Below are positions 6,022 through 50,576 of a DNA stretch of 64,000 bases, piece after piece. The DNA comes from Clostridia bacterium. GTDB lineage: Bacteria > Bacillota > Clostridia > Christensenellales > Aristaeellaceae. Every line of letters begins with the position of its first letter. Position 1 is the stretch's first letter. The position numbers and the translations under genes are program-made. The notes below the pieces were generated by a model. The model was not told where the DNA came from and made no database searches. It worked only from the letters and a program-made list of their open reading frames with translations. The stretch covers positions 26,988-90,987 of the forward strand of contig JAFSKN010000037.1 of NCBI GenBank assembly GCA_017448975.1. Direction: 5' to 3'.

Positions 6022-6025
6022 AACG

Positions 6026-8064: not shown

Positions 8065-8395
8065 ATGCTGACCTTTTTGTATTGGCTGCTCAAGGACGCG
8101 CTGTTTTTCTTCGGCATTGTGTCGGGCCGGGGCAGCTTTCCCCGGCCCCTGTCCCGGCAGGAGGAACAGGAGGCCATCGCCGCTATGCGGGCGGGGGACG
8201 AGGACGCCCGCCGGAGGCTGATCGAACACAACCTGCGCCTGGTGAGCCACATCGCCCGCAAATACACCGTGCCCGGCTATACCTTGGAAGACCTGGTTTC
8301 CGTGGGTTCCCTGGGCCTGATCAAAGCCGTGAACACCTTTAAGCCCGACGCCGGCCCCCAGCTTTCCTCTTACGCCGCCCGTTGCATTGAAAATG
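8065..8395 (+). CDS. sigK: sigK, first segment (codons 1-110 plus one base)
   Basis: This is the 5' part of the mother-cell RNA polymerase sigma factor SigK. The start follows TCGGAGGTGAAAAC. It has a hydrophobic pro-sequence (MLTFLYWLLKDALFFFG), then FPRPLS, then sigma region 2 (EHNLRLVSHIARKY, DLVSVGSLGLIKAV, SSYAARCIEN). SigK precursors have just this layout. The frame runs on to 8463, but the residues after CIEN (AMPSPMRF...) do not match a sigma factor. The match resumes at 33981 with EILMLLRASRKRRG. Element A therefore interrupts the gene inside codon 111. Ser/Tyr/Ala-Arg-Cys-Ile-Glu-Asn is essentially the same position as the B. subtilis skin insertion. Confidence 0.9.
8391..8395 (+). 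other. Left attachment core of element A (attL)
   Basis: The five bases aaatg occur here and at 33976-33980. Crossing over within them joins cattga-aaatg to aaatcctg and restores ...IEN-EIL... in frame. In the reverse junction (the circle) the core sits inside the palindrome ATAGCA-AA-TGCTAT, so the exchanged dinucleotide is probably AA at 8392-8393. Confidence 0.8.
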
Positions 8396-8480
8396 CTATG
8401 CCATCGCCGATGCGTTTTGCGCGGGCGAAAGTGAGGATTCTTCCAGTAAATGGCATGCGATAGCCCGAATATCGGGTAAA

Positions 8481-9014
8481 ATGCATATCATGTGCCGCAC
8501 AGAGGGAAGTCATGTGCGGTACGCTCCCTTGTATATCCTTTCCTTCCGCGTGACCGTCACCAAGAAGATATCCGAAGCGTTTTCCCTGAACCAACGTTAT
8601 AGGCGCTATGAAGATATTGCTTCCATCCCCGACCGCCTCCGCTGGCGCAGGCATGAACTGGGCCTGCTTCAAAAAGAAGTCGCCGCAAAAATCGGCGTCG
8701 CCCGCGCCGTTTATTCCAGCCTGGAAACTGATGAAATGGATGCTTATGATCCGCTAATCATGGACAAGCTTGCCACGCTGTATCATATCCCCATAAACGA
8801 CCTGCTGAACGATTACACCCGCTTCCTGCAAGCCGGTCAGGGACAGGCGATCTTGAATCTGCGCCAATCCTTGAACATGACCCGAGCCGAATTTGCCCAA
8901 TACCTTCATACAGACATCGATAACATCACCATTTGGGAAACGGAGAAGAAACGAATCAGTAAAGAAATGTGGGAAAAATACTTCAAGTGCTTTATGGGAG
9001 ATTCAACAGGCTGA
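8481..9014 (+). CDS. HTH protein with two tandem XRE-like units
   Basis: About 177 residues. A first helix-turn-helix (LGLLQKEVAAKIGVARAVYSSLE) covers residues 57-95. A second, more diverged one (LNMTRAEFAQYLHTDIDNITIWE) lies near residues 130-165. The start is uncertain. ATG 8481 has no ribosome-binding site, while a GTG at 8514 follows AGAGGGAAGTCAT and would give a slightly shorter protein. It is the first gene inside element A, 86 bases from the left core, so it could control the recombinase or directionality, but nothing in the sequence proves that. A clear terminator follows. Confidence 0.7.
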   Translation: MHIMCRTEGSHVRYAPLYILSFRVTVTKKISEAFSLNQRYRRYEDIASIPDRLRWRRHELGLLQKEVAAKIGVARAVYSSLETDEMDAYDPLIMDKLATLYHIPINDLLNDYTRFLQAGQGQAILNLRQSLNMTRAEFAQYLHTDIDNITIWETEKKRISKEMWEKYFKCFMGDSTG

Positions 9015-9055
9015 TCGTTACACTTCACTATCGTGCAATATGGTCATAAAATTGT

Positions 9056-9090
9056 ACAGACGGAGGCTGAATCAAGTCTCCGTCTGTTTG
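9056..9090 (+). terminator. Rho-independent terminator
   Basis: Perfect 10-bp stem ACAGACGGAG / CTCCGTCTGT with a 12-base loop, ending in TTTG. It lies between the HTH gene and the convergent HEPN gene and can serve both. Confidence 0.65.
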
Positions 9091-9102
9091 CTATGCCATA
9101 TT

Positions 9103-9519
9103 TTAATCAGGAATTACGACGATTTGTTCTTTCAAATACGTTTCCACTGCCTCCATAAATATTCCGGCGCGACGGATTTGTTCCTGCACTTCATCTTTTG
9201 AGATGATATAAGAAACGTCGTAATCCGCTTCATTACGCACTTCAAAAGCGTCTGTAATGATTCGTGAAAGGCTTTTATCAAGGATACCGGTTTTCAGGTA
9301 TCGCTGCTGAAATAACGCGATCACGCCGGAATGTTTGGAGCGCTCCGGAACATCTTCCAGGATCAACACTGCCCGCATGGAATGAAAGATCGCATAATAC
9401 GAACGATTGGCGGCGGCTTTATAATCGCCGATTTCTACGTTGCTGTTCGCGGTTTTCAGGCACCTGTGCGCGTTTTCCAAAAGAACAGCGGAATAATTCA
9501 GCCTGTCTTCCTGCGTCAT
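9103..9519 (-). CDS. HEPN-domain protein (putative toxin of a HEPN/MNT pair)
   Basis: A 138-residue all-helical protein. It contains KAAANRSYYAIFHSMRAVL (the conserved SYYAxFH HEPN helix) and RNEADYDV, the C-terminal Rx4-6-type motif region. Proteins of this kind are ribonuclease-like toxins or partners that are modified by an adjacent MNT nucleotidyltransferase. Its ATG overlaps the stop of the upstream nucleotidyltransferase gene (ATGA), so the two are translationally coupled. It could be a stabilisation or anti-phage toxin-antitoxin pair within element A. Confidence 0.85.
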   Translation of the reverse strand: MTQEDRLNYSAVLLENAHRCLKTANSNVEIGDYKAAANRSYYAIFHSMRAVLILEDVPERSKHSGVIALFQQRYLKTGILDKSLSRIITDAFEVRNEADYDVSYIISKDEVQEQIRRAGIFMEAVETYLKEQIVVIPD

Positions 9520-9854
9520 ACGGCTGGCCTCCTGTATTTGATCCCGTCCCGGACAATGTTTTCATAATACGGATGGTGTTCCGGCTGAAACGCGGCCTGC
9601 GGACGAACGCACACAGACACCACCACGTCGTGCTCCAAGGATAAATCGCTGGCGACGCCGGAAATATCCCACCGCTTCTTTTCAATTTCCGGCATGGTCA
9701 GCGGCGTGGTCAGAAAAATATCCACATCCGATTCTTCGTCATGATCCCCGCGGGCATAGGAACCGTATAAGTAGGCATCGGAAACAGGGATGATTTCAGA
9801 ACAGCCCTTCACCACTTTTTCCAATATTGCCAGGGCTTCTGACTGATTACACAT
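9516..9854 (-). CDS. MNT-type minimal nucleotidyltransferase (antitoxin partner)
   Basis: A 112-residue protein with the nucleotidyltransferase signature YGSYARGDHDEESDVDIFL (GSxxRGD...DxD). The family transfers AMP to its HEPN partner and so neutralises it. AAGGAGG lies upstream of the ATG. Gene order is nucleotidyltransferase then HEPN, with a 4-base overlap. The opposite side of its promoter region holds two large palindromes that could be operators. Confidence 0.85.
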   Translation of the reverse strand: MCNQSEALAILEKVVKGCSEIIPVSDAYLYGSYARGDHDEESDVDIFLTTPLTMPEIEKKRWDISGVASDLSLEHDVVVSVCVRPQAAFQPEHHPYYENIVRDGIKYRRPAV

Positions 9855-10016
9855 ACGGCCATGCCTCCTTCCATTCGGTTATTTGTATTATACCGCTTTT
9901 CATCACGCATAGCAAGTCCCGTGTCCGCACCACTTTTTATATCTGCTCTGGCGTGATAATAGCCATCATCATCGCCGCCCGCTGTTATTTCACCCAAAAC
10001 CGAACGAAAAGTCCAT

Positions 10017-10078
10017 ATTTCGTATAAGTATACTTATATGAAATCCCATGTTTTCGTACAAGTATACTTGTATGAAAT
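10017..10078. promoter_or_regulatory. Two tandem 28-bp palindromic operators
   Basis: Two near-perfect palindromes, 10017-10044 and 10051-10078, are repeated with a 34-base period. Their cores are TATAAGTATACTTATA and TACAAGTATACTTGTA, each extended by ATTTC...GAAAT-type arms. They lie in the 368-base divergent gap between the MNT/HEPN pair and the SWIM gene, upstream of a sigma-A promoter. Size and spacing fit binding of two dimers of a repressor or activator. The protein that binds is not identified. Confidence 0.7.
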
Positions 10079-10125
10079 TTCTATTTCAACCCTGATTCTT
10101 CCTGATATGGATTCAAATTTTTACA

Positions 10126-10154
10126 TTGTGTTTTCCCGTGCGCTCTGGTATGAT
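10126..10154 (+). promoter_or_regulatory. Promoter of the SWIM gene
   Basis: TTGTGT at 10126-10131 and TATGAT at 10149-10154 with a 17-base spacer. The gene starts at 10223 after GCGGAGGG. The tandem palindromes lie 50-110 bases upstream. Confidence 0.55.
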
Positions 10155-10222
10155 AAGGCCATATGGGCTGGCGAAATACGGTGATTTGCGGTTCTGTGAT
10201 TCTGTACAAAGCGGAGGGTATT

Positions 10223-11902
10223 ATGCTGAATTGGAAAGCGTGGTTTGATTCCAAAATCCTGGAAAGAGGGAAGGATTATTTTCGGGGCGGGGCGGTGCAG
10301 GATTTAGAGATCGACGAGGATGAAATCTCTGCCGTGGTGGAGGGAACGGACGAATACCAAGTAACCATTTCATTATCTGACGGTGAAATCGATGCAATGG
10401 ACTGCTCCTGTCCCTATGCAGAGGAACACGAGTGCTGTAAACACATGGCCGCCGTTCTGTACGCCTATGAAGACACCTTGAAAAACAAAAAAGGCAAGGA
10501 CCAGTCGGACAAAACTGAAAAGCTGACCAGGGAGAAGCTATGCGCTTTGGTGGAGAAAACGGATGTTCAGACCGTCCGGCAGTTCTTAACGGACGTGCTT
10601 TGGAATGAAGAAAAATACCGCGTGCGGTTTCAGTCCATGGTGAGCCCCGATTTCGCCAAGCAGGCTCTGGACTACGCCAAAAAGCGCCTTTCCAAGATCG
10701 AACGGAAATATGCCAGCAGCTCGGGTTATATCAATTACCGGGAGGCGCGGGCATTCACAAAGGAAGTGGAGCAGTGGATCGATGAGGAAATCGACCTGCG
10801 GATGGATCGTCACGAATACGCCGCGGCCTTTGAACTGTCCAATTTGGCGCTTTTTACTATGGCCGATGTGGACATGGATGACGGCGAATTTGGGCTGGAT
10901 GTGATTGCGGAATACTGCCAGGGTGTGTGGAAGACCATGCTGGACGCCGGAGACCCGGAAATCGAAAAGGCCCTGTTTTCCTGGTTCACTTCACACATCA
11001 ATGACAGCGTTCATTCTCTCATCGTGGACGCTTATGAAACCGTGCTGATGGAATACTTTGTCACGCCGGAATACCTGAAACAGAAGCTGGCCTTGTACCA
11101 AGGCAAATTGGATAAGCTGGACAAGGACGACAGTACGTATACTCGCAACAGGGCGCAGGAATACTTGCAGCGCTGCTTTTCTCTCATGCGGCAAATACGC
11201 CGCCCGGAGGAAGAAATCCAAGCCTTGCAGCAAAAATACTGGGCGCTGCCCTGCGTCCGGCAGCAATATATGGAGCAATGTGAGAAGGAACATCGGTGGG
11301 ATGATTTGATCGCCGCGCTGAAAGAATCCATCGAGATAGAGAAAAGACATAAGGAAGGATACGCCGCCGGTGAATATGAATTACGCTTGAAGGAAGCCTA
11401 CCGGAAAGCTGGGAAAGCGGTGGAATACAAGGCGCAGCTATGGCGGCTCATGACAGAGATCAGGCCGGGAGATCGGGATTTTTTCAAGGAATACAAAGGC
11501 ATCATCCCGGAAACAGAATGGCCGGAAGAACGAGAAAAGGTCTTTTCCGCTCTGAAATCAAAAAGCTATCTGCTGCCATCCCTGTACCATGAAGAAAAGC
11601 TGTATGACCGCTTAATGCAGTATCTTCAGGAAAAGCACAATTTTGAAATGCTGCTCCGCTATGAAAAGGAATTGCTGCCGCTCTATCCCGAAGTGTATTT
11701 GGATGCGTATGTCGATAGACTGACCAGCGCCGCCCGGCATACCGCCGACCGGAAAACCTACCAGGAATGGGTGAATACCCTGCGGCATATGCGAATCATC
11801 CCCGGCGGCAAAGAAGCGGCAGAACAGATCGTGAACGAATGGAAAACGATCTACGGAAACCGTCGGGCTATGATGGAAGAACTGAAAAAGCTGGGAAAAT
11901 AA
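10223..11902 (+). CDS. SWIM zinc-finger protein
   Basis: A 559-residue protein. The ATG at 10223 follows GCGGAGGGTATT. Residues 1-90 hold a SWIM zinc finger (MDCSCPYAEEHECCKHMAAV, the CxCxnCxH pattern), which is known to bind DNA or proteins. The remaining 450 residues are helical and repeat-like, without a helicase domain. SWIM proteins of bacteria are often encoded beside SNF2 helicases, but none is adjacent here. The role in element A is unknown. A bidirectional terminator separates it from the convergent SIR2 gene. Confidence 0.8.
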   Translation: MLNWKAWFDSKILERGKDYFRGGAVQDLEIDEDEISAVVEGTDEYQVTISLSDGEIDAMDCSCPYAEEHECCKHMAAVLYAYEDTLKNKKGKDQSDKTEKLTREKLCALVEKTDVQTVRQFLTDVLWNEEKYRVRFQSMVSPDFAKQALDYAKKRLSKIERKYASSSGYINYREARAFTKEVEQWIDEEIDLRMDRHEYAAAFELSNLALFTMADVDMDDGEFGLDVIAEYCQGVWKTMLDAGDPEIEKALFSWFTSHINDSVHSLIVDAYETVLMEYFVTPEYLKQKLALYQGKLDKLDKDDSTYTRNRAQEYLQRCFSLMRQIRRPEEEIQALQQKYWALPCVRQQYMEQCEKEHRWDDLIAALKESIEIEKRHKEGYAAGEYELRLKEAYRKAGKAVEYKAQLWRLMTEIRPGDRDFFKEYKGIIPETEWPEEREKVFSALKSKSYLLPSLYHEEKLYDRLMQYLQEKHNFEMLLRYEKELLPLYPEVYLDAYVDRLTSAARHTADRKTYQEWVNTLRHMRIIPGGKEAAEQIVNEWKTIYGNRRAMMEELKKLGK

Positions 11903-11930
11903 GCGATGCTCAGACGACAAGCATCATGAT

Positions 11931-11963
11931 AAAAAGCAGTGCTGTCATTTTGCGCTGCTTTTT
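11931..11963. terminator. Bidirectional terminator
   Basis: AAAAAGCAG and CTGCTTTTT flank a 15-base loop, giving A and T tracts for both strands. It lies between the convergent SWIM and SIR2 genes. Confidence 0.65.
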
Positions 11964-11987
11964 ATGAACCACTATAAGTTTTCCCAT

Positions 11988-13016
11988 TTATGAAGGGGAC
12001 TTTGCTTTCTCTATCCTTTTCTGAATATCCTGAAAGGCCAATTCATAAAATGCCTGATAATCTGCGTCGGTTTTCGGCTTGTCCTTCGTAAGGCATGGAA
12101 TAAACGCCCCGTGAGCCAGCAAAAGCTTTTGCTTTACGCTGGTTTTGTCTGGTGCTTCGTAAAAATACACCCGGCTGTCGCTGAACCGTTCCCGCTGCTT
12201 CCGGCGCAGGAGCCACCAGAGATCGGTTTCGCAGGTCTCGAACCCAAAGCCAATGATGTACAAATCACCGAACAGGAACAGTTCCGGCCAGGAGATGAAG
12301 GGTTGGGGTTCCGTCACCGGTTCATTGCCGTCGTAGGACAGGGTGGCGCAGGTTTGTTCAATCTTGCTCAGCATGCGACCGTACCTGTCCGCGCCTAAAA
12401 CCACCCCGCGGGGTACAGAGGCTTCCCCGTGGATATGCCAGAGCCCCACGGGGCTTCCATCGGCGTTCCGGGCCTGATATCCGCTGTGAATGCGGTAATT
12501 CACTTCTCTGGGCTGCTTGTTATTCTCTTTCCGTTCCGGGTTTAAATTAAAACGGCGTGTGGAACGAACGTTTGATTTGCTGAAATCCTGACGAGGCAGG
12601 AATGCTTTTTCCAGGCAGTAAGAATAATTGGTGGTGAAAATGTGATCCGCCCCCAGGGATGGAAGCCTGTCCAGCAGGCGATTGCTTGCGTTTTTCAGTT
12701 CCTTCAAGCCCTCAGCAAGTCGCCTTTCCTGGTCGTCTATATCCTCCCGCCGCAAATGGGCCGGAGCGGGCTGTGGGGAGGATAGCAGCTCGTAGAGCAG
12801 GGGAAACGGGATTTTCTCCATCATCCCCTCGATTTCCTTCATGAACGCTTTTTTCTGCTCGTCGGTCATGGAACCGCTATCCTGCACGGCGATTTTCTCC
12901 AGCAGTTTGTCCCACCCAATCTGTCCGCTGCTTCTCTCCAAACCGTTCCCCACCAGCACGATCTGCGGACGGCCAGAACCATAGGGGATGTGACGAAATT
13001 GAATATTCTTGGGCAT
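11988..13016 (-). CDS. SIR2-like domain protein (putative defence NADase)
   Basis: A 342-residue protein. The ATG at 13016 follows AAGGAAGG; the TTG two codons earlier is less likely. SIR2 features run in order: QIVLVGNGLE (Rossmann start), HIFTTNYSYCLEKAF, LWHIHGEASV with the catalytic-type histidine, and LYIIGFGFETCETDLWWLL. Defence SIR2 proteins deplete NAD+ when triggered by phage. It starts 29 bases after the end of the nuclease-NACHT gene on the same strand, so the two form an operon. It could be the effector or a second effector of that sensor; this is inference. Confidence 0.82.
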   Translation of the reverse strand: MPKNIQFRHIPYGSGRPQIVLVGNGLERSSGQIGWDKLLEKIAVQDSGSMTDEQKKAFMKEIEGMMEKIPFPLLYELLSSPQPAPAHLRREDIDDQERRLAEGLKELKNASNRLLDRLPSLGADHIFTTNYSYCLEKAFLPRQDFSKSNVRSTRRFNLNPERKENNKQPREVNYRIHSGYQARNADGSPVGLWHIHGEASVPRGVVLGADRYGRMLSKIEQTCATLSYDGNEPVTEPQPFISWPELFLFGDLYIIGFGFETCETDLWWLLRRKQRERFSDSRVYFYEAPDKTSVKQKLLLAHGAFIPCLTKDKPKTDADYQAFYELAFQDIQKRIEKAKSPS

Positions 13017-13045
13017 AAGCAATCCTTCCTTATCCTATGCGGAGG

Positions 13046-16000
13046 TCAGTCGTTCCGGTGCGCTTCCTCCGCCAGAGCCAGCAGCCGTTGGGTGTCCACA
13101 GGCAGGACTTCCAACTTTTCGCGGATGCGTCTCCGGCAGGAGAAAATCAGATCCCTCGGCAGATTCGTTTGCGTTTCCGGCAGGGAAAGCAGGGCCTGAT
13201 ACAGCAGCATGCCGCCCGTGAGGCTGAGGCAGGCGGTTGCTCTCATCCAAAAATGATTCAATCGTTCTTCCCGGAGAAAGCCACGAAGCTCCTCCCAAAT
13301 ATCGTTTTTTACTTCTTCCGATACGGTGCCGGTGAGAATATGCAGAATGCAGCCCAGCAGCGCCAGGCGGTTTCCGGTGGCCCGAATCCCCGTCAGAAGG
13401 ATTCTGGCGCGCTCGTCGGACAGTTCGCCCAATGCCGTGTGCTCAATATCACCCGCCATAAACGGAACCAGCGAATACACCTGCAGATAAGTGCCGCTGA
13501 TATTGACTAATTGGCTGATTTTTTCAAACGCGGAGGATTCGTTTATCCCTCTGCGAGGGTATAGCACGATCCTCTCCGGCAGCTCGGATGGAAATTCGAT
13601 GTCCGCACGGAGAAGTGCATCCAACGGCGTATTGGCAAATGAATGAATCGCTATGCCCTGGCCGGCATAGTCCTGAAACATCGACGGAAAAATACGCAGG
13701 CAAAAGGATTGAAAATCTCCGTCTGTCTTCATGCGGTAGGAAACGCCATACACTAAATGATTACAAAACGCTTCTTTTCCTAACGCCAGCAGGACGCGCG
13801 GAACGTTCCCCCTCAGGTCAATATGAATGCCCATACCCATGGATTTCCATAACTTTTCCTTCGTGATTTCGTCATAGTTTTCCGCCTCCAGGAGGGCTTT
13901 GGCATATTCTTCTCGCTTCCTGCACGCCTCAAAACGGGCTTCATCGTAATACGACATCACCGCTTCCGCCGATCCCGTATTCAGCCGACGGCTGATATCG
14001 GCGAGCAGCCAATGACAGGGCATGACCGTGCGCCTGAAAAACGCCTGATCTTCATCTGATAAAGCTCCATAAACCCGCAGCAACTCATCAAGGGTATGCG
14101 GGGAAGGCGCCAGGAGAAAACCGATAAACGCGGTCAGCTCCGGCAGTCCGGCGGCGGCAAATTTTTCCGGCAGGTCTTTTATTGAGGACAGTTTGGACGC
14201 GGAAGCGAAAGCCGGCCTAAATCGAATCATATGGCTTTCAAAAGCGACGCCGGCCACAAGCGCATCGTATATCGTTTCGCATGCTTCAGCAAGCGCCGCG
14301 AGAGAATGTTCCGCATGCGCAGAATCTTCCGTCGCTTTGTCGAAACGATCTCCTTCCAGGATTTTATACAGGATGACCCGATAGAAGTCGGGGCAGGAGG
14401 AAGCTTCCTTTGCTTCTGGAAAACGCGTTAAATACTCGGCGGTAAACTCTTCAATCGCTCCAATGAAATAATATTCACATGTTTTCAGCCAACGCAATAA
14501 GGTATTCATCGTCCGGTTCCCTAAGCTGCCATAATTCCAGGAACGAATGAAAAAGTAATCCGCATCCCTGGGTGGGATTACCCGGTCAGCCAGCTCCTCC
14601 AGTTGCTCCGCCGCGTATGCGTTTCCCTCCGCGGCCAGGATCCATAAAGAATGGAAAGGGGACGAATCGGCGCTCAAGCTCGCATGAACAGCGGGGATAA
14701 TATATCTTTCCATCAGACTCTGTAACAGTTTTTTCGGCAAAAGGGAAATCTGCCGCATATAAGGTCTCCATTCGGAAAGCGTTTTTGTCGCTTCAATCAG
14801 GTATTTTTCCTGCTCATAGGGTCTGCGGAACAGGTTATCCACCAGCATATCCATCGCTAAATAAGAACCGGACTGGGCCGCACGATAAATTTCCGGAGAG
14901 ACACTCTCGCACTCAAAGCTTTCCTCGCCGTTATTGCATTTGCAAATTCGGAAAAGTTCATGATTGATCAGCGTCCGGCTTGGGTTTTTGGCGAAATACC
15001 CCGCAACAAACAGGTACACGTTCCGCCAGTAAGCGCTGGTGGAGAGCCTTTCCAGCGTTTCCCGAAGCGCCTCCGTTTTATCGTCGTGGAAGCTGATGAT
15101 CCATTCCGCGGCGAAGTATTCCTGAATGGAGCGAAGCGGGAAACGAACGACGCTTTCCTTCTCCCTTGGCACTTCTTCAAGGAACGGAAGCCGATTGATG
15201 ACGGCCTGATAGAGCGCCTGTGCCTGCGAAGGCGCGTCTTCCCCGCTGTATTCTTCGTTTTCAAGGTATTTTGTGATGATTTCCCTGTAGCGGTTGACCG
15301 TCAGTTCTGCCGCCGCGTTTTCTTTTGTTTCAGATTCCGCCTGCAGCAGGAAGCCGATTTGCGAAAGCAGCGGCACGATCCAGTCATACGTCCCTTCCAC
15401 CTGCGGCAGCGTGCGTTTTTCCTGTTCCCGTTTGCAGATGATTTCGCAGTAGTCGTGAAACAGGTCGTACCGCTTGGTGGGAGGCGTGCCGCCATGCTTT
15501 ACCATCACCACGATGATGGAGGTGTACAAGGGGGTGGTCATGAGCTTGGCGGTCATCGGTGTTTCCAGGGCGTGGAACAGGATGCTCCGGTACTGTTCCC
15601 GCATATCGCCGTTTTTTTCGATATGCTCCAGCAGCTTTTCGATGTACGCTTTACAGCGGTCAGGGGATAAATCCTTCAGCAGGTAATGACTGAAATATTT
15701 GGGAGAGAAAGCGTCGTTATAGCCTTGGGGCCGGGAGGTGCAGACGATCAGACAATCGCATTGGGCGTCCGACAGATCCTGACTCAAAAAATGCTCAATA
15801 CGGGAAAGCACCTCGTCTCGGTTGGAGGAAGCGGGCACCTCGTCCAGTCCGTCAAAGAAAAACGCCCAGGAATAAACGGACAGGAGCTCCCGCAGTTCAA
15901 ATTGGCGCAGTTGCCCGTTGGTTTTCTCATTGATGCGGTTACAGATATAAGAGAGCACCGACAAATCTTCCTGCCGGTTGAGCCTTGCCGCGTAGTCTTT

Positions 16001-17017: not shown

Positions 17018-17147
17018 GCCGCACGCTCCTTTGTGACGAACGAAAGTGACGGTTTTCCATTTCTGCCCTGTCAGCTTCATTATACGGGAAAGAATGCCAA
17101 ATTGCAACCGCGATCTGCGCAAACAATTCAGAACAGCCTTACAAGAT

Positions 17148-17184
17148 AAGCCCGGCAATGGAACGTCTTTCATCGCCGGGTCTT
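17148..17184 (-). terminator. Terminator of the second mobilisation module
   Basis: Arms aagcccggcaatg and catcgccgggtctt form an 11-13 bp stem just beyond the stop of the 70-residue gene, on the minus strand. The nuclease-NACHT promoter must lie in the remaining 130 bases. Confidence 0.5.
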
Positions 17185-17197
17185 ATATTTCAGGCTA

Positions 17198-17410: not shown

Positions 17411-17469
17411 CTCCCTTCCTGGTGCAATATATGCGCTCGATTCTGTTCCATATGAAGTAAAATGAGGAC

Positions 17470-39768: not shown

Positions 39769-39821
39769 GCATCTTCCTCCTTCCTGTCAGATTGTTTGCC
39801 GGCAGAAACGGCGCGTGGCCG

Positions 39822-41129: not shown

Positions 41130-41130
41130 C

Positions 41131-43139: not shown

Positions 43140-44242
43140 GCTTCTTTCTCCAAGAGCGCGCAATACCGATCAGCCATTTTCTTTGCCACGGTATCAGCGT
43201 CATATTCCCAAATCGAGTCTGAAATATCGGCTCTGTCGATTGTTTTTCCCCCGATTTCATTCAGCGCGTCCACCCACGCGCTTATCTGATGATCCTCCGG
43301 GGGAAGCTGTTTTGTGTTTGGCGTGATCAGGAGCGATGGCGATACACGGTCTGTGAACAGGCACGGAAGCCCCGCGCTTTGCGCCTCGATACCGGTCAGC
43401 GGGAACCCTTCGTACAGAGAAGGAAGAACAAACGCATCCATCGCCTGATAGTACGGGCTTGTGTCCTTCTGCAAGCCGACAAACAAAACGTCTTTTTCAA
43501 GCCCCAAATTCACGGCCAGCTGCTGAATGTCTTCCATCAAATAACCGCCGCCGACCAAAAGCAATGCCGCGCTGTCCATCGATTTTTTTAGTTCGCAAAA
43601 CATTTCTAAAAGAAACCGATGGTTTTTTTCCGGGAAAAACCTGCCCACGTGGCCGACCACGAAGCGGCCTTCTACGCCCAATTCTTTCCGGATTTCTTTT
43701 CGGGTGCGCTCATGATACAGGAAACGGCGAACATCGATTCCGTTATGAACGATTTCAAAAGATTTGTTCCGAAATTGATATTGCCCCGCTTCCGGAGAAC
43801 AGGCCAAATGGATATTTGCGTAAAGCGGAGAAAGCCTGAACAGCATATTTTTCGCGCAGCCTTTGACGGAGCGGACATAGGATGGAACATGGCTGTGAAG
43901 GATCCGCCAGGGAACCCCCGCCCGTTTCGCTTCTCCCAGATACCAATAGGCCATACTCCCCAAGTGACCGTGCACGATCCGATATTCGGGATGCTCCTGA
44001 TACAGACGGCGAAGCTGCCGGCGGTATTTGATCAGATTGCCATCGTCCGTCACCGTCGTATGGTAGATATGCCCCCCCATTGCTTCTATCTCGTCTTCAA
44101 ATGTTCCCCGCCTTCCGTGATGCGTCAAAAAGTCGAATTGAATCTCAGATCGATCCATGCAGCGATAAAGATTCATAATATAGTTTTCCATTCCGCCGTA
44201 TTCCATCGCGCCTACGACGTGAAGTATCCGTATCGCTTTCAA
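43136..44242 (-). CDS. Glycosyltransferase family 4 (GT-B)
   Basis: A 368-residue enzyme. The start is read as TTG 44242 (LKAIRILHVVGAMEYGGMEN), which follows GAGAGGAG and matches the usual family N-terminus; an in-frame ATG further upstream would run into the previous gene. Conserved regions are HGHLGSMAYWYL, EIVHNGIDVRRF, VGHVGRFFPEKNHRFL, and the nucleotide-sugar site PSLYEGFPLTGIEAQSAGLP. It acts in repeat-unit assembly. Confidence 0.85.
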   Translation of the reverse strand: MKAIRILHVVGAMEYGGMENYIMNLYRCMDRSEIQFDFLTHHGRRGTFEDEIEAMGGHIYHTTVTDDGNLIKYRRQLRRLYQEHPEYRIVHGHLGSMAYWYLGEAKRAGVPWRILHSHVPSYVRSVKGCAKNMLFRLSPLYANIHLACSPEAGQYQFRNKSFEIVHNGIDVRRFLYHERTRKEIRKELGVEGRFVVGHVGRFFPEKNHRFLLEMFCELKKSMDSAALLLVGGGYLMEDIQQLAVNLGLEKDVLFVGLQKDTSPYYQAMDAFVLPSLYEGFPLTGIEAQSAGLPCLFTDRVSPSLLITPNTKQLPPEDHQISAWVDALNEIGGKTIDRADISDSIWEYDADTVAKKMADRYCALLEKEA

Positions 44243-44264
44243 TCCAGGTTTTCTCCTCTCAGCT

Positions 44265-45179
44265 TTAGTTCCGAAGGAAAGCTTTGTAAAACCATGACCG
44301 AAACTGTCTTGGCGATAATCCAACGATTGCCGTACTTGCTGATCTGATGAAAAAGTCCGCAGGCGAAGACCAATGCGCTTTTAACATCCACAGGTTAAAA
44401 CTGATCGAGTTCTTTACGTATTTCCACCCCCCGCGCCGCTGGTAATAATCGTCTCCAACGCGCACATAGTACAAAAATTCGTTTACCGTACAGCACTTTG
44501 CGCCGGAAATCAGCATACGAATGAACAGATCGTAATCTTCCACAACGTAATCGCCGCGATAATTGCCCGCCTCGATAACCTTTCCTTTCTTCATCATCAC
44601 AGCGGCATGACACAGGGGCGATCTTCTGCGTGACAGCCGGGCAAGCGATGCATGGTCTGCGGGATAAATCCTGCGGGCTACCACATGGTCGGTGGAACCG
44701 TAAAACTCTTTGTAATTACAGCTCACCATATCCGCGCCGTTTTTGATGGCTAACCGCAATTCTTTTTCGCAGCGACCCGGATCCGCTATGTCATCGGCAT
44801 CCATTCGTGCAATCCACTCGTTTTTTGCCTGGTTGACGCCAAACCGCAAGGCTTCTGCCAAACCCATATTGCGGGGCAGGCTCAGGCATCTGATCATCCC
44901 GGGATATTGGACGGAATACTTGCGTTCAACATCGGAAATCTCTTGGGGGACAGGGCCGTCTTCAATAATCAGGATTTCATCGGGAGGGAAACTCTGGTTC
45001 GCCATCGATTTGACTGCTTGATCAAACCATACCGCACAGTCTTTTTTAAATACGGATAATATAACGCTGTATGGCGGCAGAGCAAAACCGGGATCTTTGT
45101 TTTTGACCATCTCCTGATCTGGCAATTGGTTTTCATTCATTCGGCATTTGCCCCCATCGCTGTTTCTAATCCGGATCAC
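44265..45179 (-). CDS. Glycosyltransferase family 2 (rhamnosyl/galactosyl type)
   Basis: A 304-residue GT-A enzyme: YSVILSVFKKDCAVWFDQAV, ILIIEDGPVPQEI, and DxD in IARMDADDIADPGRCEKEL. Two starts are possible: GTG 45179, overlapping the upstream stop as GTGA, and ATG 45140, preceded by GGGGGC. The operon pattern of overlaps favours the GTG, but the extra 13 residues are not conserved-looking. The family is common in capsular and exopolysaccharide loci. Confidence 0.82.
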   Translation of the reverse strand: MIRIRNSDGGKCRMNENQLPDQEMVKNKDPGFALPPYSVILSVFKKDCAVWFDQAVKSMANQSFPPDEILIIEDGPVPQEISDVERKYSVQYPGMIRCLSLPRNMGLAEALRFGVNQAKNEWIARMDADDIADPGRCEKELRLAIKNGADMVSCNYKEFYGSTDHVVARRIYPADHASLARLSRRRSPLCHAAVMMKKGKVIEAGNYRGDYVVEDYDLFIRMLISGAKCCTVNEFLYYVRVGDDYYQRRGGWKYVKNSISFNLWMLKAHWSSPADFFIRSASTAIVGLSPRQFRSWFYKAFLRN

Positions 45180-45886
45180 TTATGTTTCTTCTTTTCTTTC
45201 CCGCCGCCGTAATAGTAATAGGAGTAATGATTCTTTGCATAATCCTTTTTATCGATTTTATTCATTACGTACCCCATAATGGGACAGCCTGTTTTTTCGA
45301 TTTGCGCGGTGGATTTTTTCAGCATGCTCACAGTCACCGCTCCGCTTTGAACGACGAACAGGGCGGCGTTGCAGAATTTGGAGATTTTGGCCGTATCGAT
45401 GATCGTTCCAATAGGCGGCGTATCAATCAGGACGAGGTCGTACCGTTTCCCCAATTCATCCAGCAATTCTTCCAGCCTGAAAGAATTAAACAGAGGGAAG
45501 GAGTTCATCACGGTTTTTCCGGGCAGGATCATATCCGCGCCGGGGATATCCGTGTGCCCGATCACATCGTCAATTCCACACAATCCGGAAAGCAGCCCGC
45601 TCAGCCCAAGATATTCATTCGCACCGCCGACTTCAATATCGTAACTGCGCTGAAGGGTGGAAGCCCGTACGTCGGCGTCAACCAGGATGATCTTCTTGCC
45701 CAGTTCGGCCATGGCGCGAAACAGATGAATCGAAACAAAGCTTTTTCCTTCGTTTGGATAGCAGCTGGTAATCAATATTTTGCGGATATCGCCCCCGGCT
45801 ATGGACAAATTGGCACAAAGCTTATTGATGGCTTCCGCTCCTTGAAAATCAAGATTTTCAAGGTGATTGATGCTCATTGTCGTCAT
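45176..45886 (-). CDS. CpsD/CapB-type tyrosine autokinase
   Basis: A 236-residue BY-kinase. Walker A is in ITSCYPNEGKSFVS, Walker A' in IILVDADVRAS and Walker B in YDLVLIDTPP. The C-terminus has the tyrosine cluster HYSYYYYGGG that is autophosphorylated in this family. It works with the Wzz-type membrane protein encoded just upstream (ATGA overlap) to control polymerisation and export. Cytoplasmic. Confidence 0.92.
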   Translation of the reverse strand: MTTMSINHLENLDFQGAEAINKLCANLSIAGGDIRKILITSCYPNEGKSFVSIHLFRAMAELGKKIILVDADVRASTLQRSYDIEVGGANEYLGLSGLLSGLCGIDDVIGHTDIPGADMILPGKTVMNSFPLFNSFRLEELLDELGKRYDLVLIDTPPIGTIIDTAKISKFCNAALFVVQSGAVTVSMLKKSTAQIEKTGCPIMGYVMNKIDKKDYAKNHYSYYYYGGGKEKKKHK

Positions 45887-46602
45887 AGTAAATGCCTGTC
45901 CTTTTCGATGGTTTCATAGCAGGGGATCTCGCTTAACGGCTCTACTCCCATATATTTATACAGGTCGTCCGCGGTTTTTATCTTGTCGTCGCATATATAT
46001 GCGATGAACAGGCACCAAACGGCCATCAAGCCAGCCAGAATCGTACTTGCGCCCATGATCAGCATTTTTCTTGGACGGGAAGGGGCCAATGGCTCCAAAG
46101 CGACGGATATCGTGGTCGGTTTACTTGTCAGCATCGCGTCGGAAATGTATTGGCTTACGACGGAAGCGTATTCGTTTGCCACAGCTGCCGCTTCACTGGC
46201 GCTGGGAGAAGAAAACGTGATCGTTAATACGCGGGTGTTGTTCGGATTGCTTACCGACAGGTGTTCTTTCATCTGCTTGACCGTATAGGACAAGTTCAGA
46301 TGATTGATCACCGTTTGGTTGACCTCCCAGGTCTGGAACATCCATTGGTAATCGCTTGTCAGATACGAGCCAATCTGCAAATCAGACAAATTGATCACCG
46401 AATCCTGAGAATTGACCACATAAATCTGGGAAGTGGCCTCGTACATGGGACGAATGACAAAAAACACCGCGATGGCAGAAACGATAAGGGAGGCACACAT
46501 GACGCCCGCTATCAGCTTCCATTTTTTTAGCAGAAACCGAACGAACCCCAAAAAATCATAAAATCGGTTTTCCTGAGTTGATTGTCGTGTCATCGCAGCC
46601 AT
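45883..46602 (-). CDS. Wzz/CpsC-type chain-length and kinase activator protein
   Basis: A 239-residue protein with two membrane segments (WKLIAGVMCASLIVSAIAVF and MLIMGASTILAGLMAVWCLF) flanking an extracellular domain, and the conserved proline-rich motif APSRPRK before the second segment. Known partners activate the CpsD kinase and set chain length. Start 46602 is used, but ATG 46593 is equally possible (GAGGGAG upstream). First gene of the exopolysaccharide operon. Confidence 0.88.
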   Translation of the reverse strand: MAAMTRQSTQENRFYDFLGFVRFLLKKWKLIAGVMCASLIVSAIAVFFVIRPMYEATSQIYVVNSQDSVINLSDLQIGSYLTSDYQWMFQTWEVNQTVINHLNLSYTVKQMKEHLSVSNPNNTRVLTITFSSPSASEAAAVANEYASVVSQYISDAMLTSKPTTISVALEPLAPSRPRKMLIMGASTILAGLMAVWCLFIAYICDDKIKTADDLYKYMGVEPLSEIPCYETIEKDRHLL

Positions 46603-46700
46603 TCTCCCTCATGCTTTTGGAAATCATTTTTTTCAATGACAATGGTTCGGAATGCCATGTTCATTCATGCAAAATGATGATCCTTCTTCATTCCGGTCTT

Positions 46701-47315
46701 TTAGCCGAAGACCATATCGCCCTGCAAAAGGGCAATCAGTACGCCTTCGCTGGCAAAGATTTCTTCCAGAATACTCTGGGAGAAAGTGAGCTTCACCAGG
46801 CCATTGATGGGTTCCGCGGGAATCGGCACCCAGGTGATTTCGTTATCATTGATAAAGCCGACCATCCCAACGAGAAGCGTGTCGGCTTCATACACTGTGT
46901 CAAAGGCGTAGAACAGTTCCACGTCCTCTTGGATCTGTCCGGAAATCGACACTTCTTCCACAGCCCAGAGTTCCGCCAGAACAAGCTCTTGCGCGATGTC
47001 GGACGCTTTTTCTGCCGCGGTGCTCTCAGCCAGGGAATCGGCCAATGCCTCGACCACCTTTTCCATTGCTTCTTCACCGAAGTAATCGGCAGCAGTCTTG
47101 CTCTCTTTGGCGAACGCGATTTGTTCATCAAGGGCAGCACTGTCTTCCGTCAGCGTAATAACCACCGAGAATCCCTTCGACGCGTCTTCTGTCTGGGCGA
47201 CGATGGTGTTTTGCCTTGCGGGCGAAGGTGCTGCTGCGGTAGTTTCACACAGCGCCAACGTATGTGTGAACAGTACGATGACGGCGAGAATACCGCAAAT
47301 CATCTTCTTTTTCAC
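46701..47315 (-). CDS. Exported protein of unknown function
   Basis: A 204-residue protein starting at GTG 47315 after AAAGGAG. The N-terminus is a signal peptide (MKKKMICGILAVIVLFTHTL, cleavage probably after ALCE or ALC). The mature part is acidic with a helical middle (EKVVEALADSLAESTAAEKA) and a mixed C-terminus (YEADTLLVGMVGFINDNEIT). No family recognised. Its place between the Wzz and LCP genes suggests a role in the cell envelope or polysaccharide. Confidence 0.7.
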   Translation of the reverse strand: MKKKMICGILAVIVLFTHTLALCETTAAAPSPARQNTIVAQTEDASKGFSVVITLTEDSAALDEQIAFAKESKTAADYFGEEAMEKVVEALADSLAESTAAEKASDIAQELVLAELWAVEEVSISGQIQEDVELFYAFDTVYEADTLLVGMVGFINDNEITWVPIPAEPINGLVKLTFSQSILEEIFASEGVLIALLQGDMVFG

Positions 47316-47453
47316 TCTTTTCTCCTTTCTGCATCATTTCCTGTGCAACAGATTTCCTTATATGTATGAAGCCCGATGGCATTCCGACAAATAGATCAAA
47401 AGCGGCGCCTGCACAGCGCGGCGTGCAACATAACGACCGCGTTTGAACGAAGC

Positions 47454-48413
47454 TCACGATATCCGCTCGTAAAAGCAATCGATCACAGTTTCCCACAAAG
47501 CATCCGAATCCACATAGAATTCTTCAAAGCCTTCGGCGCCGATTTGCCATTCCCCCTCCATTTCCTGAAGGGAAACAATATCGTATTGCCGCGTCTTATT
47601 GGACAGATTCAGAATCAATCCACGTTTCATATCCGTGTTGGCATAGGGCGAAAGGGCGTCGAACACATCCAGAATAAAAGAGGCGGATTCCTGCACTCGC
47701 GCCTCCAGCGCGCCTTTTGCTTTCTCCAAATAGTCTTTTTGCCGCGTCATACGGGACGCGCTGGTTTGATCGCCCACATCATAACGGCCTCTTACATAAT
47801 ATTCCGCCTGTTTCCCCGCAAGCACCAGCGTTTTTCCCTTTGTCATGCTGGGATCGTACGCGGTAAAATCATCCTCCAGCGTCACCTCGATGCCGCCGAG
47901 CAGGTCGTTCAATACCTGGATGCCGTCCAGATTGATCGCGTAATAATAATCGATGGGAGTATCCAGCAAAAAAGCGCTGCATGCTTTTTTCGTCAGTTTT
48001 CCGCTGATTTCGCCGCCGTTTCCATAAGAATACGCCAGACAAATCTGCGCGTTTCTCTCCCCGATTTCCTGCCCGAGTAAATTGAGGACGGTCATGCGCA
48101 CCATGGTATTCCGGTTGATACGCAAGAGTGAAACAGTTTTGTTCTCGTCGTTGATGACAGCGACAGCCAGAAAATCGGCTTGACCGCCCTGGCGAAAAGC
48201 GCCGTCGCCAGCGCGCTCGTTTTCCCATTGGTCGATCCCCAGAATCAGGATCGTCGTGATTCTTTTCCGAAGCCGATAGGTGAGGCCCTGATAGTCTATG
48301 GTCTTTCCCATCAGTGTCATTTGAGGATCGCCTGTCATGGTTTCGGATATTCCGGCTGAGGATAAAGCAACAATGATACAGCAAATCCATACGGCGGTTC
48401 TTAATCTGTGCAT
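47454..48413 (-). CDS. LytR-CpsA-Psr (LCP) family protein
   Basis: A 319-residue protein. The ATG at 48413 follows AGGTGGAACTG; longer in-frame starts lack a site. One N-terminal membrane segment (AVWICCIIVALSSAGI) anchors it, with the LCP domain outside: TTILILGIDQ, DFLAVAVINDENKTVSLLRI, NRNTMV, and GIQVLNDLLGGIEVTL. LCP enzymes attach lipid-linked polymers to peptidoglycan, which fits the adjacent exopolysaccharide operon. Confidence 0.88.
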   Translation of the reverse strand: MHRLRTAVWICCIIVALSSAGISETMTGDPQMTLMGKTIDYQGLTYRLRKRITTILILGIDQWENERAGDGAFRQGGQADFLAVAVINDENKTVSLLRINRNTMVRMTVLNLLGQEIGERNAQICLAYSYGNGGEISGKLTKKACSAFLLDTPIDYYYAINLDGIQVLNDLLGGIEVTLEDDFTAYDPSMTKGKTLVLAGKQAEYYVRGRYDVGDQTSASRMTRQKDYLEKAKGALEARVQESASFILDVFDALSPYANTDMKRGLILNLSNKTRQYDIVSLQEMEGEWQIGAEGFEEFYVDSDALWETVIDCFYERIS

Positions 48414-48599
48414 CAGTTCCACCTGCTTTCTTCGTTTGCGGTGGGAGATCAAGCAGACTTCAATCTCCGGATTTTGCAGAAGAATTTTTGCCCACGGATG
48501 CGGGATATGTCCGGAAAGCATCCTAAAAAATGGCAAAAAAACCACGGCATGATTATACCATAAACGGAGCCTGAAGTCTACCGTTTTACACCAAAAGAA

Positions 48600-48619
48600 C
48601 ATTTGTTTACATTTGTTTA
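48600..48619. repeat. Tandem 10-bp repeat upstream of the LCP gene
   Basis: catttgttta occurs twice head to tail in the 322-base divergent gap between the LCP gene and the small gene at 48736. It could be a regulator site for either direction; no clear sigma-A promoter was identified in this gap. Confidence 0.45.
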
Positions 48620-48735
48620 TCCGAGCGTCATGAGGATTTTCCGCACCCGAAAGGTTCCTGCCCGGATATATTTTCAGCGTGGACAGGCAAAACAGCGGGC
48701 GTTCAGACATACGTTCAACGCAGGAGGTGGGATAT

Positions 48736-48882
48736 GTGAAAAAGAACGGCGCGCCTGTGGTTCATTGCGTATATACAAAAGCCGAAGAAAGCCTCTCGCG
48801 GCTGCTGGAGGAAGCTTTTCGGCTCTATCTTGCCCGCATCCTTGCTCCGGCAGGGGGAAACGCGGTGCTTTGGGAGCGATGA
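48736..48882 (+). CDS. 48-residue protein before the element B recombinase
   Basis: Read from GTG 48736 after CAGGAGGTGGGATAT. The sequence starts MKKNGAPVVHCVYTKAEESL (initiator GTG read as Met) and continues as an amphipathic helix (SRLLEEAFRLYLARILA). Its stop overlaps an in-frame ATG of the recombinase (CGATGA). Small proteins of this look often precede LSR genes in gut Clostridia. It is a candidate recombination directionality factor or regulator, by position only. Confidence 0.6.
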   Translation: MKKNGAPVVHCVYTKAEESLSRLLEEAFRLYLARILAPAGGNAVLWER

Positions 48883-48908
48883 ACAGCCGTTTATTTCAGG
48901 GAGAAAAG

Positions 48909-50504
48909 ATGTATCCGGAAATAAGCAATCCCCTGGATTATCATGCCGCGCTATACATTCGGCTGTCAAAGGAGGACGAAACCGAAGGGCCCTCCCAAAG
49001 CGTGACCAACCAGCAGTCGCTGCTGAAAGCGTTTGCGCGGCAGCATCGGCTATCCGTGTACGGCACCTACATCGACGACGGCTTCAGCGGAACCAGCTTT
49101 GACCGGCCGGGCTTTCAGCGGATGATCGCTGACATCGAGGCAAAGAAGGTCAATATGGTCATCACCAAGGACTTGTCCCGCTTGGGACGCGACTATATCA
49201 TGACCGGCCACTACATGGAGCGGTACTTTCCGGAGAAGGGGGTGCGGTACATCTCCCTGCTGGACGGCATCGACACGGGCGTGGAATCCAGCGCCAACGA
49301 CATCACCCCCTTCCGCGCCATCATGAATGATATGTACGCCAAGGACATCTCCAAGAAAATCAAGTCCGTGAAGCGTGACAAGCAGCGCAAGGGGCAGTTC
49401 ATCGGCGGCAAACCCGTATACGGCTATAAGATGCACCCCACGGAGAAAAACAAAATCGTTATTGACGAAGAAGCGGCTTTTGTTGTCCGGCGCATTTTCG
49501 GCATGGCATTGGAGGGCGTCAGCTGCCGGCAGATCGCCGTGCGGCTGAACGAGGAGCACATTCCCACGCCCGCTGTCTACGCCGGGCTGCCCCGCGGCAC
49601 AAAAGGCGCTTACCGCGGTCAATGGTCGTCAGAGCGCATCTCGGAAATGCTGAAAAACGAAACCTACATCGGCCATATGGTGCAGGGACGAACGGTGAAG
49701 ATCAGTTACAAGTCCAAGAAATGCCGCGCGCAGCCGCCGGAAAACTGGGTGGTGGTGAAGCATACCCATGAAGCGCTGATCGAAGAGGACGCCTTCCGCA
49801 AGGTGCAGCTGCTGATCGGCAGCCGGAAACACACCCGAAGCCGAACCTACGATTTCCTGCTGAAAGGGCTGATTTTCTGCCGCGAATGCGGCTACCCCAT
49901 GGCGGTCATGAACCGTCCCAACGCCGCCGGGGAAGAAAGGCTGTTCTTCGTCTGCCGTACCTATCAGCGGTTCACCAAGGCGGGGGTATGCACCTGCCAC
50001 TCCATCAAAGAGCAAACGGTGACGGAGGCGGTCATCGCCAAGGTGAAGGAGGTGTGCCAAGCCTTCCTTTGCCCGGACAGATTGCAGCCCATTGCCGCGG
50101 CGGCGGTGGAGAAAGCCCGGAAGGCGGACGGCGGCGAGGCGGAAATCCAGAGCCTGCAAAGCAAAATCGAAAACCTGAGCGCAAATCTGGATCAAGTGTA
50201 CATGGACCGGCTGGGCGGCCTGCTGTCGGGGGCAGACTTTGACCGCATCTGCAAACGGGTGCGGACGGATCGCGCGGCACTGGAAGAAAGGCTGAAGCAG
50301 CTGGAGGCACAAAAGGAAAAACCAGTCTCCGCCGAAGACCTGGCAAGGAAGCTGGTGCGGCAGTATCTGTCGTCCGCCTGCGCCAGCAGGGAACTGCTGG
50401 TGAGCCTCATCGAGCGCGTGGAACTGACCGACGACAAGCAAATCATCATTCATTTCCGCTTCCGCGAGCCGGAAGCCGTTTCTCAGGGCAATCGTTTGCA
50501 ATAA
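48909..50504 (+). CDS. TnpX-type large serine recombinase of element B
   Basis: A 531-residue LSR. The ATG at 48909 follows CAGGGAGAAAAG; an ATG at 48879, overlapping the small gene's stop, would add 10 residues. The resolvase domain has catalytic Ser20 (YIRLS), VITKDLSRLGRD and AIMNDMYAKDISKKI. A recombinase domain, a zinc ribbon (FCRECGYPM and FVCRTYQRFTKAGVCTC) and a short coiled coil follow. It stops 10 bases before the right core of element B and reads in the direction of sigK. It differs clearly in sequence from the element A recombinase, so the two elements have separate origins. Confidence 0.92.
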   Translation: MYPEISNPLDYHAALYIRLSKEDETEGPSQSVTNQQSLLKAFARQHRLSVYGTYIDDGFSGTSFDRPGFQRMIADIEAKKVNMVITKDLSRLGRDYIMTGHYMERYFPEKGVRYISLLDGIDTGVESSANDITPFRAIMNDMYAKDISKKIKSVKRDKQRKGQFIGGKPVYGYKMHPTEKNKIVIDEEAAFVVRRIFGMALEGVSCRQIAVRLNEEHIPTPAVYAGLPRGTKGAYRGQWSSERISEMLKNETYIGHMVQGRTVKISYKSKKCRAQPPENWVVVKHTHEALIEEDAFRKVQLLIGSRKHTRSRTYDFLLKGLIFCRECGYPMAVMNRPNAAGEERLFFVCRTYQRFTKAGVCTCHSIKEQTVTEAVIAKVKEVCQAFLCPDRLQPIAAAAVEKARKADGGEAEIQSLQSKIENLSANLDQVYMDRLGGLLSGADFDRICKRVRTDRAALEERLKQLEAQKEKPVSAEDLARKLVRQYLSSACASRELLVSLIERVELTDDKQIIIHFRFREPEAVSQGNRLQ

Positions 50505-50514
50505 GCGCGGCGCG

Positions 50515-50525
50515 ATGTATCGCGC
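50515..50525 (+). other. Right attachment core of element B
   Basis: atgtatcgcgc, the direct repeat of 34275-34285, 10 bases after the recombinase stop. Left flank gcaataagcgcggcgcg is element sequence and pairs with gccgccgctattgtaaa from the other end when the ends are joined. Confidence 0.85.
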
Positions 50526-50576
50526 ATGGAAAAACGGGCGCTGGAAATGCTGCGGCAGGGGCTGGAAACGGAATGA
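50526..50576 (+). CDS. sigK: sigK, last segment (16 codons and stop)
   Basis: It reads MEKRALEMLRQGLETE and a TGA stop. In its frame the preceding core encodes DVSR here and YVSR on the other side, so joining gives SYVSRMEKRALEML, the near-invariant ending of region 4.2 in sporulation sigma factors (SYVSRIEKRAL...). The three segments sum to 687 nt, 228 residues plus stop, close to known SigK length. A hairpin follows directly. Confidence 0.85.
   Translation: MEKRALEMLRQGLETE

Follow-up and report, generated by a model that had tools for sequence, protein, structure and literature searches.

How can a bacterium make SigK, a sigma factor of late sporulation, when its sigK gene is cut into three pieces, and why would one gene hold two insertions? 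We addressed these questions in a stretch of 64,000 nucleotides (the window; bases 26988-90987 of contig C61) from an uncultured gut bacterium of the class Clostridia, family Aristaeellaceae, whose genome assembly (G000) consists of 80 contigs and is 85% complete. Here a single contig carries the sporulation gene sigK as three pieces, and the 25,585 and 16,240 bp between them are what we call element 1 and element 2 (Table 1). We consider it likely that these are two unrelated intervening elements of the skin type, which occupy sigK in series and each excise by their own system in the mother cell. The support lies in features of the DNA itself, namely the anatomy of the gene, the apparent site specificity of the recombinases, the open frames, the near-palindromic attachment sites (attP) obtained by joining the element ends, the conserved small proteins, and an upstream motif that these have in common with sigK.

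The split sigK gene and its attachment sites

Joined in frame, the three pieces encode a single protein of 228 residues, and this is thus a sporulation gene that is split with its parts in frame. The joined protein scores 270.6 bits against the curated SigK model NF004471 (cut-off 252), reaching the score set for SigK, and 275.5 bits against TIGR02846, which is under the cut-off of 298.65. Because the naturally intact SigK of a relative, G024, falls short of the latter by nearly the same margin (271.8 bits for NF004471 and 274.4 for TIGR02846), the shortfall is a trait of the lineage. We joined the pieces in 13 interrupted genomes, counting the window, and each joined frame is open and encodes 225-234 residues.

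These results bear out a sequence-only reading of the window, which had joined the same pieces into a 228-residue SigK, placed each junction at a short direct repeat and ended each intervening segment in its own large serine recombinase (LSR) gene reading with sigK. The repeats are AAATG and ATGTATCGCGC, both LSR genes are open, and the element sizes given in that reading are exact. It had also proposed a search for an uninterrupted homologue among related genomes, and had named an intact sigK elsewhere in this genome as a sign against itself. The nearest relative in the genus, G024, does have an uninterrupted sigK, which is 98% identical in the middle piece. No second SigK was found in the 80 contigs of the 85% complete assembly; the strongest other match is SigE, which passes the SigE models and follows a spoIIGA-like gene (recognised by eye).

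The 5-bp AAATG repeat might by itself arise by chance. However, we do not regard the repeats as chance, because the element ends are near-palindromic and both junctions recur in other genomes. The joined ends of element 1 match in 16 of 25 pairs, which was seen at a frequency of 8e-5 in 200,000 random joins, and those of element 2 in 20 of 25 pairs, which was seen in none of 200,000; the palindrome centre was picked by us inside each repeat, so that these frequencies are somewhat too small. Across seven genomes, the site-1 near-palindromes have 14 to 20 of 25 pairs and are centred on AA. Serine recombinases cross over at a central dinucleotide, and near-palindromes centred on AA and GT fit this. 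The integration sites fall at nt 328-329 (site 1, codon 110) and nt 628-629 (site 2, codon 210) of the joined gene. The attL and attR arms are common within site 1 and within site 2 and are distinct from sigK, with the site-1 arms of G158, G250 and G280 diverging more. On the element side, a stop codon follows the core in 8 of the 15 site-2 attL seen, and excision would remove it.

Recombinases and candidate directionality factors

LSR1 and LSR2 are ~23% identical to each other. Their NCBIfam matches, to Ccr and XisF and for LSR2 also to YneB, are below the cut-offs. For LSR2 we give the likely start at 48879, taken from comparison with related frames; the open frame begins at 48603. In 308 genomes of the family, used for all LSR searches, relatives of LSR1 with at least 59% identity occur in 10, and in nine of the ten the gene adjoins sigK piece 2 at site 1. 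The LSR1 contig of G248 duplicates that of G213, which leaves 8 of 9 independent cases at site 1. Relatives of LSR2 with at least 68% identity occur in 15 genomes and all 15 lie at site 2, 13 with the sigK 3' piece behind them and two inverted against the 5' part. At the loci L080 and L081 (G218 and G225), LSR2 is at the attL end and reads towards sigK, that is, the element is inverted. There are also five weaker LSR1 relatives (34-42%), and the two inspected have no sigK in the stretch examined. Judged by position, each recombinase therefore appears dedicated to its own sigK site, and the earlier view of two independent serine-recombinase elements agrees with the low identity of the two proteins and with close relatives that keep to one site each. 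A sigma-A-like promoter lies upstream of LSR1 in G000, G015, G158 and G250.

Each element also encodes a small protein that may act as a recombination directionality factor (RDF). Candidate RDF1 belongs to a family of 60-70 aa proteins with a conserved alignment across site-1 elements, and among the matches listed it is the sole gene besides LSR1 in all nine site-1 elements of sufficient length. Searched alone, with the 70-aa frame from GTG 17410, it was found in 10 of the 308 genomes, which are the nine LSR1 genomes other than G248, plus G235. Its likely start, at a conserved position in window 17399-17410 and 8-9 nt behind GGAGG (spacing read by eye in G238), is ATT in two, ATC in four and ATG in two of eight elements, and a non-ATG start would make translation weak and tightly limited. 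The GTG was rejected as the start, as it overlaps the ribosome-binding site and lacks conservation. We also considered a small open reading frame (ORF) directly upstream of LSR1 as the factor; none there is conserved, and the conserved one is located elsewhere. Candidate RDF2 represents a protein of ~50 aa whose gene immediately precedes LSR2 in all 10 of the site-2 elements examined.

The sequences upstream of sigK and of both candidate factors have a similar -10-like motif (Table 1). In the 30 nt that precede the ribosome-binding site, CATA is found in 8/8 RDF1 genes, 10/10 RDF2 genes and 15 of 16 sigK genes from the genus, compared with 7 of 45 control genes, three of which are sigK itself; because these sequences share ancestry and we picked the motif after inspection, P values computed from the counts are too small. 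From the consensus sequences of sigma-E and sigma-K promoters, we take CATA to be a putative -10 motif of one or the other. A GGACAAGC-like block ~20 nt upstream of the CATA motif of RDF2 (window 48600-48720), conserved in closer relatives, resembles a SpoIIID site. The systems described in C. difficile and B. subtilis would support the assignment of CATA to sigma-E or sigma-K (PMC5025042, PMC6957869).

Cargo, movement and distribution of the elements

The two elements differ in what they carry (Table 1). Element 1 combines defence genes with a relaxase and also encodes a SWIM protein and a TnpV-like protein. Integrative mobilizable elements with a MobA/MobL relaxase and an LSR are a known class, and element 1, which has a relaxase together with an integrase (LSR1) and no phage structural gene among the ORFs scanned, resembles them; it differs in that its target is a sporulation gene, and its mobility is putative. 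In element 2, no relaxase was found in the 10 ORFs scanned, and on this count it does not class as mobilizable. A Pfam scan of 22 ORFs of both elements, which left out the LSRs, the small factors and at least seven shorter or overlapping ORFs, found no phage structural genes, and the elements do not class as prophage-like; PHROGs searches with five proteins gave one weak tape-measure match (E 7e-4), to the relaxase. The surface protein gene at 36126-39110 of element 2 contains a run of closely similar repeats at 38473-38950.

Upstream of sigK, window 1394-5058 holds a further mobile element with a MobA/MobL relaxase and a third LSR (31% like LSR2). An identical 26-bp sequence is found in inverted orientation at 1366-1391 and 19356-19381, close to two relaxase genes; possibly, and this is a guess, it is a common transfer origin (oriT). 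Five site-1 elements measured range from ~7.9 to 40.3 kb, and six measured at site 2 span 2.4 to 38.1 kb; element size is thus variable and the recombination unit constant. The shortest site-2 element measured (2.4 kb) is L085 (G248:C56, 172-3152), whose attL has no stop codon; the open frame reported over its sigK, at 816 aa, could reach into LSR2.

Table 1 Positions of sigK pieces, attachment sites, recombinase and factor genes, upstream motifs and cargo in the window
Feature	Position	Strand	Details
sigK piece 1	8065..8394	+	codons 1-110; hydrophobic pro-sequence-like N-terminus and most of region 2
sigK piece 2	33977..34285	+	codons 110/111-213; repeat shares codon 110
sigK piece 3	50526..50576	+	codons 214-228 and stop
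attL of element 1	8391..8395	+	AAATG; predicted crossover AA at 8392-8393
attR of element 1	33976..33980	+	AAATG; predicted crossover AA at 33977-33978
attL of element 2	34275..34285	+	ATGTATCGCGC; predicted crossover GT at 34277-34278
attR of element 2	50515..50525	+	ATGTATCGCGC; predicted crossover GT at 50517-50518
LSR1	32176..33981	+	element 1; Pfam Resolvase, Recombinase, Zn_ribbon_recom; stop codon overlaps attR
LSR2	48879..50504	+	element 2; Pfam Resolvase, Recombinase, Zn_ribbon_recom
Sigma-A-like promoter upstream of LSR1	32111..32139	+	TTTACA-17-TATTAT
Candidate RDF1	17198..17401	-	67 aa from ATT, 8 nt behind GGAGG
Candidate RDF2	48736..48882	+	48 aa from GTG, directly upstream of LSR2
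-10-like motif upstream of sigK	8040..8047	+	CATATACT
-10-like motif upstream of candidate RDF1	17426..17433	-	CATATATT
-10-like motif upstream of candidate RDF2	48708..48715	+	CATACGTT
Element 1	8392..33976		25,585 bp; relaxase, defence genes, candidate RDF1, LSR1
HEPN / nucleotidyltransferase pair (toxin-antitoxin-like)	9103..9854	-	Pfam HEPN, NTP_transf_2
SIR2-like protein and 1375-aa NACHT-like protein	11988..17173	-	
MobA/MobL relaxase	17470..18798	-	Pfam E 9e-68
Type III restriction-modification pair (methylase, restriction subunit)	20700..25001	+	Pfam, PADLOC
1950-aa AAA ATPase, Cap4-nuclease-like N-terminus	25207..31059	+	Cap4 match under gathering score
Element 2	34277..50516		16,240 bp; surface proteins, polysaccharide genes, candidate RDF2, LSR2
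Three putative surface proteins	34525..39768	-	BspA-type repeats; one with transglutaminase-like domain
Exopolysaccharide set	39822..48710	-	flippase, glycosyltransferases, EpsG-like, Wzz, LytR-CpsA-Psr

LSR1 is constrained, with a dN of 0.028, a dS of 0.357 and a dN/dS of 0.08 between G000 and G015. The dS of sigK between the same genomes is 0.83-0.87, and LSR1, being well under this, has therefore probably moved between species. LSR2 of G000 is 85% identical to that of G248, which belongs to another genus and whose SigK is 62% identical to the G024 SigK.

A search with the alignment of the genus found named relatives that are mostly uncultured Clostridia, Candidatus Limiplasma among them, with those from gut and rumen the nearest. 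Within the genus set of 29 genomes, sigK is full length in 17. Site 1 is occupied and site 2 empty in three (G010, G012 and G015), the reverse holds in two (G005 and G014), and in two more (G007 and G011) site 2 is occupied with the 3' side alone visible. Both sites were seen occupied only in G000. In G025 the gene is cut by a contig end, and in G008 SigE alone was found. In G018 a contig (L090 / L216; the end of G018:C211) starts right at the site-1 crossover; a sample with both joined and interrupted forms would give such a start, and we leave this genome undecided. The sigK of G019 (L035; G019:C22) has lost an internal stretch in frame, reaching from the N-terminus to region 4, and G028 has, besides an intact copy on another contig, a second, damaged sigK with a stop codon (L039; G028:C10).

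The SigK scan covered 300 family genomes and gave, among the matches listed, 10 with site 1 occupied, 20 with site 2 occupied and 157 with any sigK evidence. These counts were made by hand, with 26 genomes searched again, and the 157 are 166 minus nine SigE-only genomes (G008, G031, G056, G089, G115, G204, G233, G251 and G257). At least three genomes are doubles: G000; G213, of another genus and near-complete; and the fragmentary G238. One contig of G213 holds attL1, attR1 and attL2 and another holds attR2 with piece 3, and the joined frame is 228 aa. G238 has attL1 and attR2 on two contigs, and its middle piece was not found. G235, with attR2 and an RDF1-like gene, may be a fourth. As the 3' side alone is visible in G007, G011, G091 and G235, and G280 was seen at site 1 alone, three is a lower bound. 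Three further candidates were set aside: G248:C7 is 99.9% the same as part of G213:C30 and was counted once, the sigK parts on the two contigs of G101 overlap and were taken as intact, and the gene of G080 ends at a contig end.

We also searched viral contigs. The attP patterns, used to look for circular or phage forms, gave 3 and 2 matches there, none with LSR1, LSR2 or sigK in the stretch examined, so that they were rejected, and a motif search of these contigs confirmed no LSR1. One viral contig, L208 (4460 bp), pairs an LSR1-like gene (59%) back to back with an LSR2-like gene, and sigK piece 2 begins at its LSR1 end. Four others (L204, L205, L206 and L212) have several different LSR genes in a row; the last LSR of L206 adjoins a sigK 3' end, and L205 breaks off shortly inside a junction of this kind.

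Alternative readings and biological meaning

Single skin elements are already known, and we compare them here with the window. In C. difficile the LSR gene lies directly upstream of the sigK 3' part, the LSR (CD1231) is constitutive, the small RDF (CD1234) has a sigma-E / SpoIIID promoter, and the circle is excised in the mother cell (PMC5025042). Element 1 has the same layout in its sequence, with LSR1 apart from candidate RDF1, whereas the C. difficile skin is one element and sigK in the window has two (PMC5025042). In the B. subtilis skin (SpoIVCA / Skr), the small RDF gene overlaps the LSR start, as RDF2 does LSR2, and the core AATGA is also present at the joined site 1; unlike the pair in the window, it is a single element and a defective prophage (PMC6957869, PMC10745906). 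The B. subtilis and C. difficile insertions occupy two different sites in sigK. In the B. cereus group, insertions use alternative sites at nt 195 and 423, compared with nt 328-329 and 628-629 here; some carry non-phage cargo such as a restriction-modification system, as here, but one element per sigK is described, against two in the window (PMC10745906). The gin element in gerE of Bacillus cereus is likewise non-phage and encodes an LSR and a small extra factor, but it sits in another gene and has several recombinases in one element, where we find two elements in one gene (PMC5595907). Large elements are also found in sigK of Clostridium tetani and Alicyclobacillus; in contrast to those in the window, these are phage genomes, one per gene (PMC5553647, PMC13141910). 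In the open literature (titles, abstract openings and some passages, with subscription papers and preprints uncovered) we found no description of two elements in one sigK, in line with the sequence-only reading, which knew of no case in series. New here are the candidate directionality factors.

On the reading that we favour, LSR1 and LSR2 would each have joined their own attP to an attB in sigK, at codons 110 and 210. Each element would also supply a small factor, expressed in the mother cell from a promoter of the sigK class, that turns its recombinase to attL x attR excision. Once both circles (25.6 and 16.2 kb) had gone, the pro-sigK open frame would be complete. Pro-SigK would then probably be processed by a SpoIVFB-type protease, and the SpoIVFA/SpoIVFB-like pair encoded in the genome suggests that cleavage of the pro-sequence is a third step. 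Excision would be confined to the mother cell and the germ line would keep both elements. SigK would probably appear solely after both excisions, as under a double lock.

Several observations weigh against this account. A joined, excised sigK has no match on any G000 contig, and the SpoIIID-like protein is just under its curated cut-off (103.8 against 111.5 bits). The link between the recombinase, the small protein and the site is not universal: LSR1 of G238 has no adjoining sigK, G280 has a site-1 attL with neither LSR1 nor RDF1 found in its genome, and G235 has an RDF1-like gene with no LSR1 found. The sigma-A-like promoter of LSR1 is good in just four of eight elements and unclear in the other four. 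The role of the small proteins as directionality factors is inferred from co-occurrence and promoter resemblance: neither RDF1 nor RDF2 was matched in Pfam, in PHROGs RDF1 has two matches, both marginal (E 0.04-0.05), while RDF2 has none, RDF1 lacks an ordinary start codon at the conserved position in six of eight elements, a stop codon lies just ahead of that position in G136, and the RDF1 dN/dS of 0.27, on 12 differences, supports constraint weakly. Finally, excision of element 1 alone in G000 would give a protein of 228 residues with the last 15 foreign; because this product is full length, the second lock might leak. The corresponding product in G213 stops at residue 210. We take the site-2 break to lie inside the promoter-reading helix of region 4.2, and a SigK made after excision of element 1 alone would likely lose activity.

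An assembly artefact, in the form of a chimeric contig, is hardly credible as the source of the double interruption: the genome is in 80 contigs, is taken as metagenome-assembled and includes a redundant contig, C50, equal to window 5160-19358 at 99.99%, but C50 spans the site-1 attL just as the window has it, other assemblies show the four junction types too, and the G213 contig described above holds three of them. C50 was itself considered as an excised form and rejected, as it is the same unexcised DNA with different last bases, the match stopping at the 26-bp sequence. A sigK permanently disrupted in a lineage that no longer sporulates would fit the lack of a joined copy in the assembly, whose 85% completeness also makes counts of sporulation genes uncertain. 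We find such a loss improbable, given three open pieces that are nearly identical to those of the intact relative (dN/dS ~0.07 and ~0.04 against G024 for pieces 1 and 2), the 13 open joined frames, the open LSR genes and the matching attachment sites, as well as the presence in the genome of SigE, a SpoIIID-like protein and a SpoIVFA/SpoIVFB-like pair (SpoIVFB-like assigned by Pfam M50, SpoIVFA-like by eye). Excision in growing cells, with the elements behaving as mobile or phase-variable DNA and control of sporulation incidental, also seems unlikely. Element 1 has a relaxase and could transfer, it has the 26-bp sequence in common with the neighbouring relaxase element, and LSR1 of G000 has its sigma-A-like promoter; however, the candidate factors have the sigK-type motif upstream, where vegetative promoters were not searched for.

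Why there are two elements is a further question, and here we lean towards two unrelated parasites, each with its own excision system, that form a pair without joint regulatory function, an answer that is compatible with the excision scheme we favour. Among the matches listed, three doubles compare with 1.27 expected under independence (P 0.12), both recombinases show signs of horizontal movement, and the recognised cargo has no relation to sporulation; the presence of two elements is most simply explained as independent occupation of two conserved sites. What speaks the other way is that both small factors have the sigK-type motif, because of which the elements look tuned to the host programme, though this would be tuning of each and not of the pair. 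An evolved two-key design is unproven, because doubles are not clearly commoner than chance. We are doubtful of a sequential two-key switch with two outputs, in which the elements would leave at different times and an interim full-length SigK isoform would be made before the final SigK. Element 1 would then supply a constitutive recombinase and a mother-cell factor, perhaps throttled by its ATT/ATC start, and element 2 a factor and recombinase in one mother-cell unit; in the interim isoform, element 2 would provide the final 15 residues, among them those that end the promoter-reading helix.

So far, single skin elements have been viewed as regulatory timers or, alternatively, as parasites that acquired a means of leaving. 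The doubly interrupted gene, a second near-complete case and the surrounding family now offer a natural comparison of sigK with no element, with one at either site, or with both. Two short proteins are now candidate directionality factors, and attachment sites have been mapped for two recombinases. Our findings suggest that a sporulation gene can house defence islands with a relaxase as well as polysaccharide cassettes, and for such an element, leaving the doomed mother cell would cost nothing.

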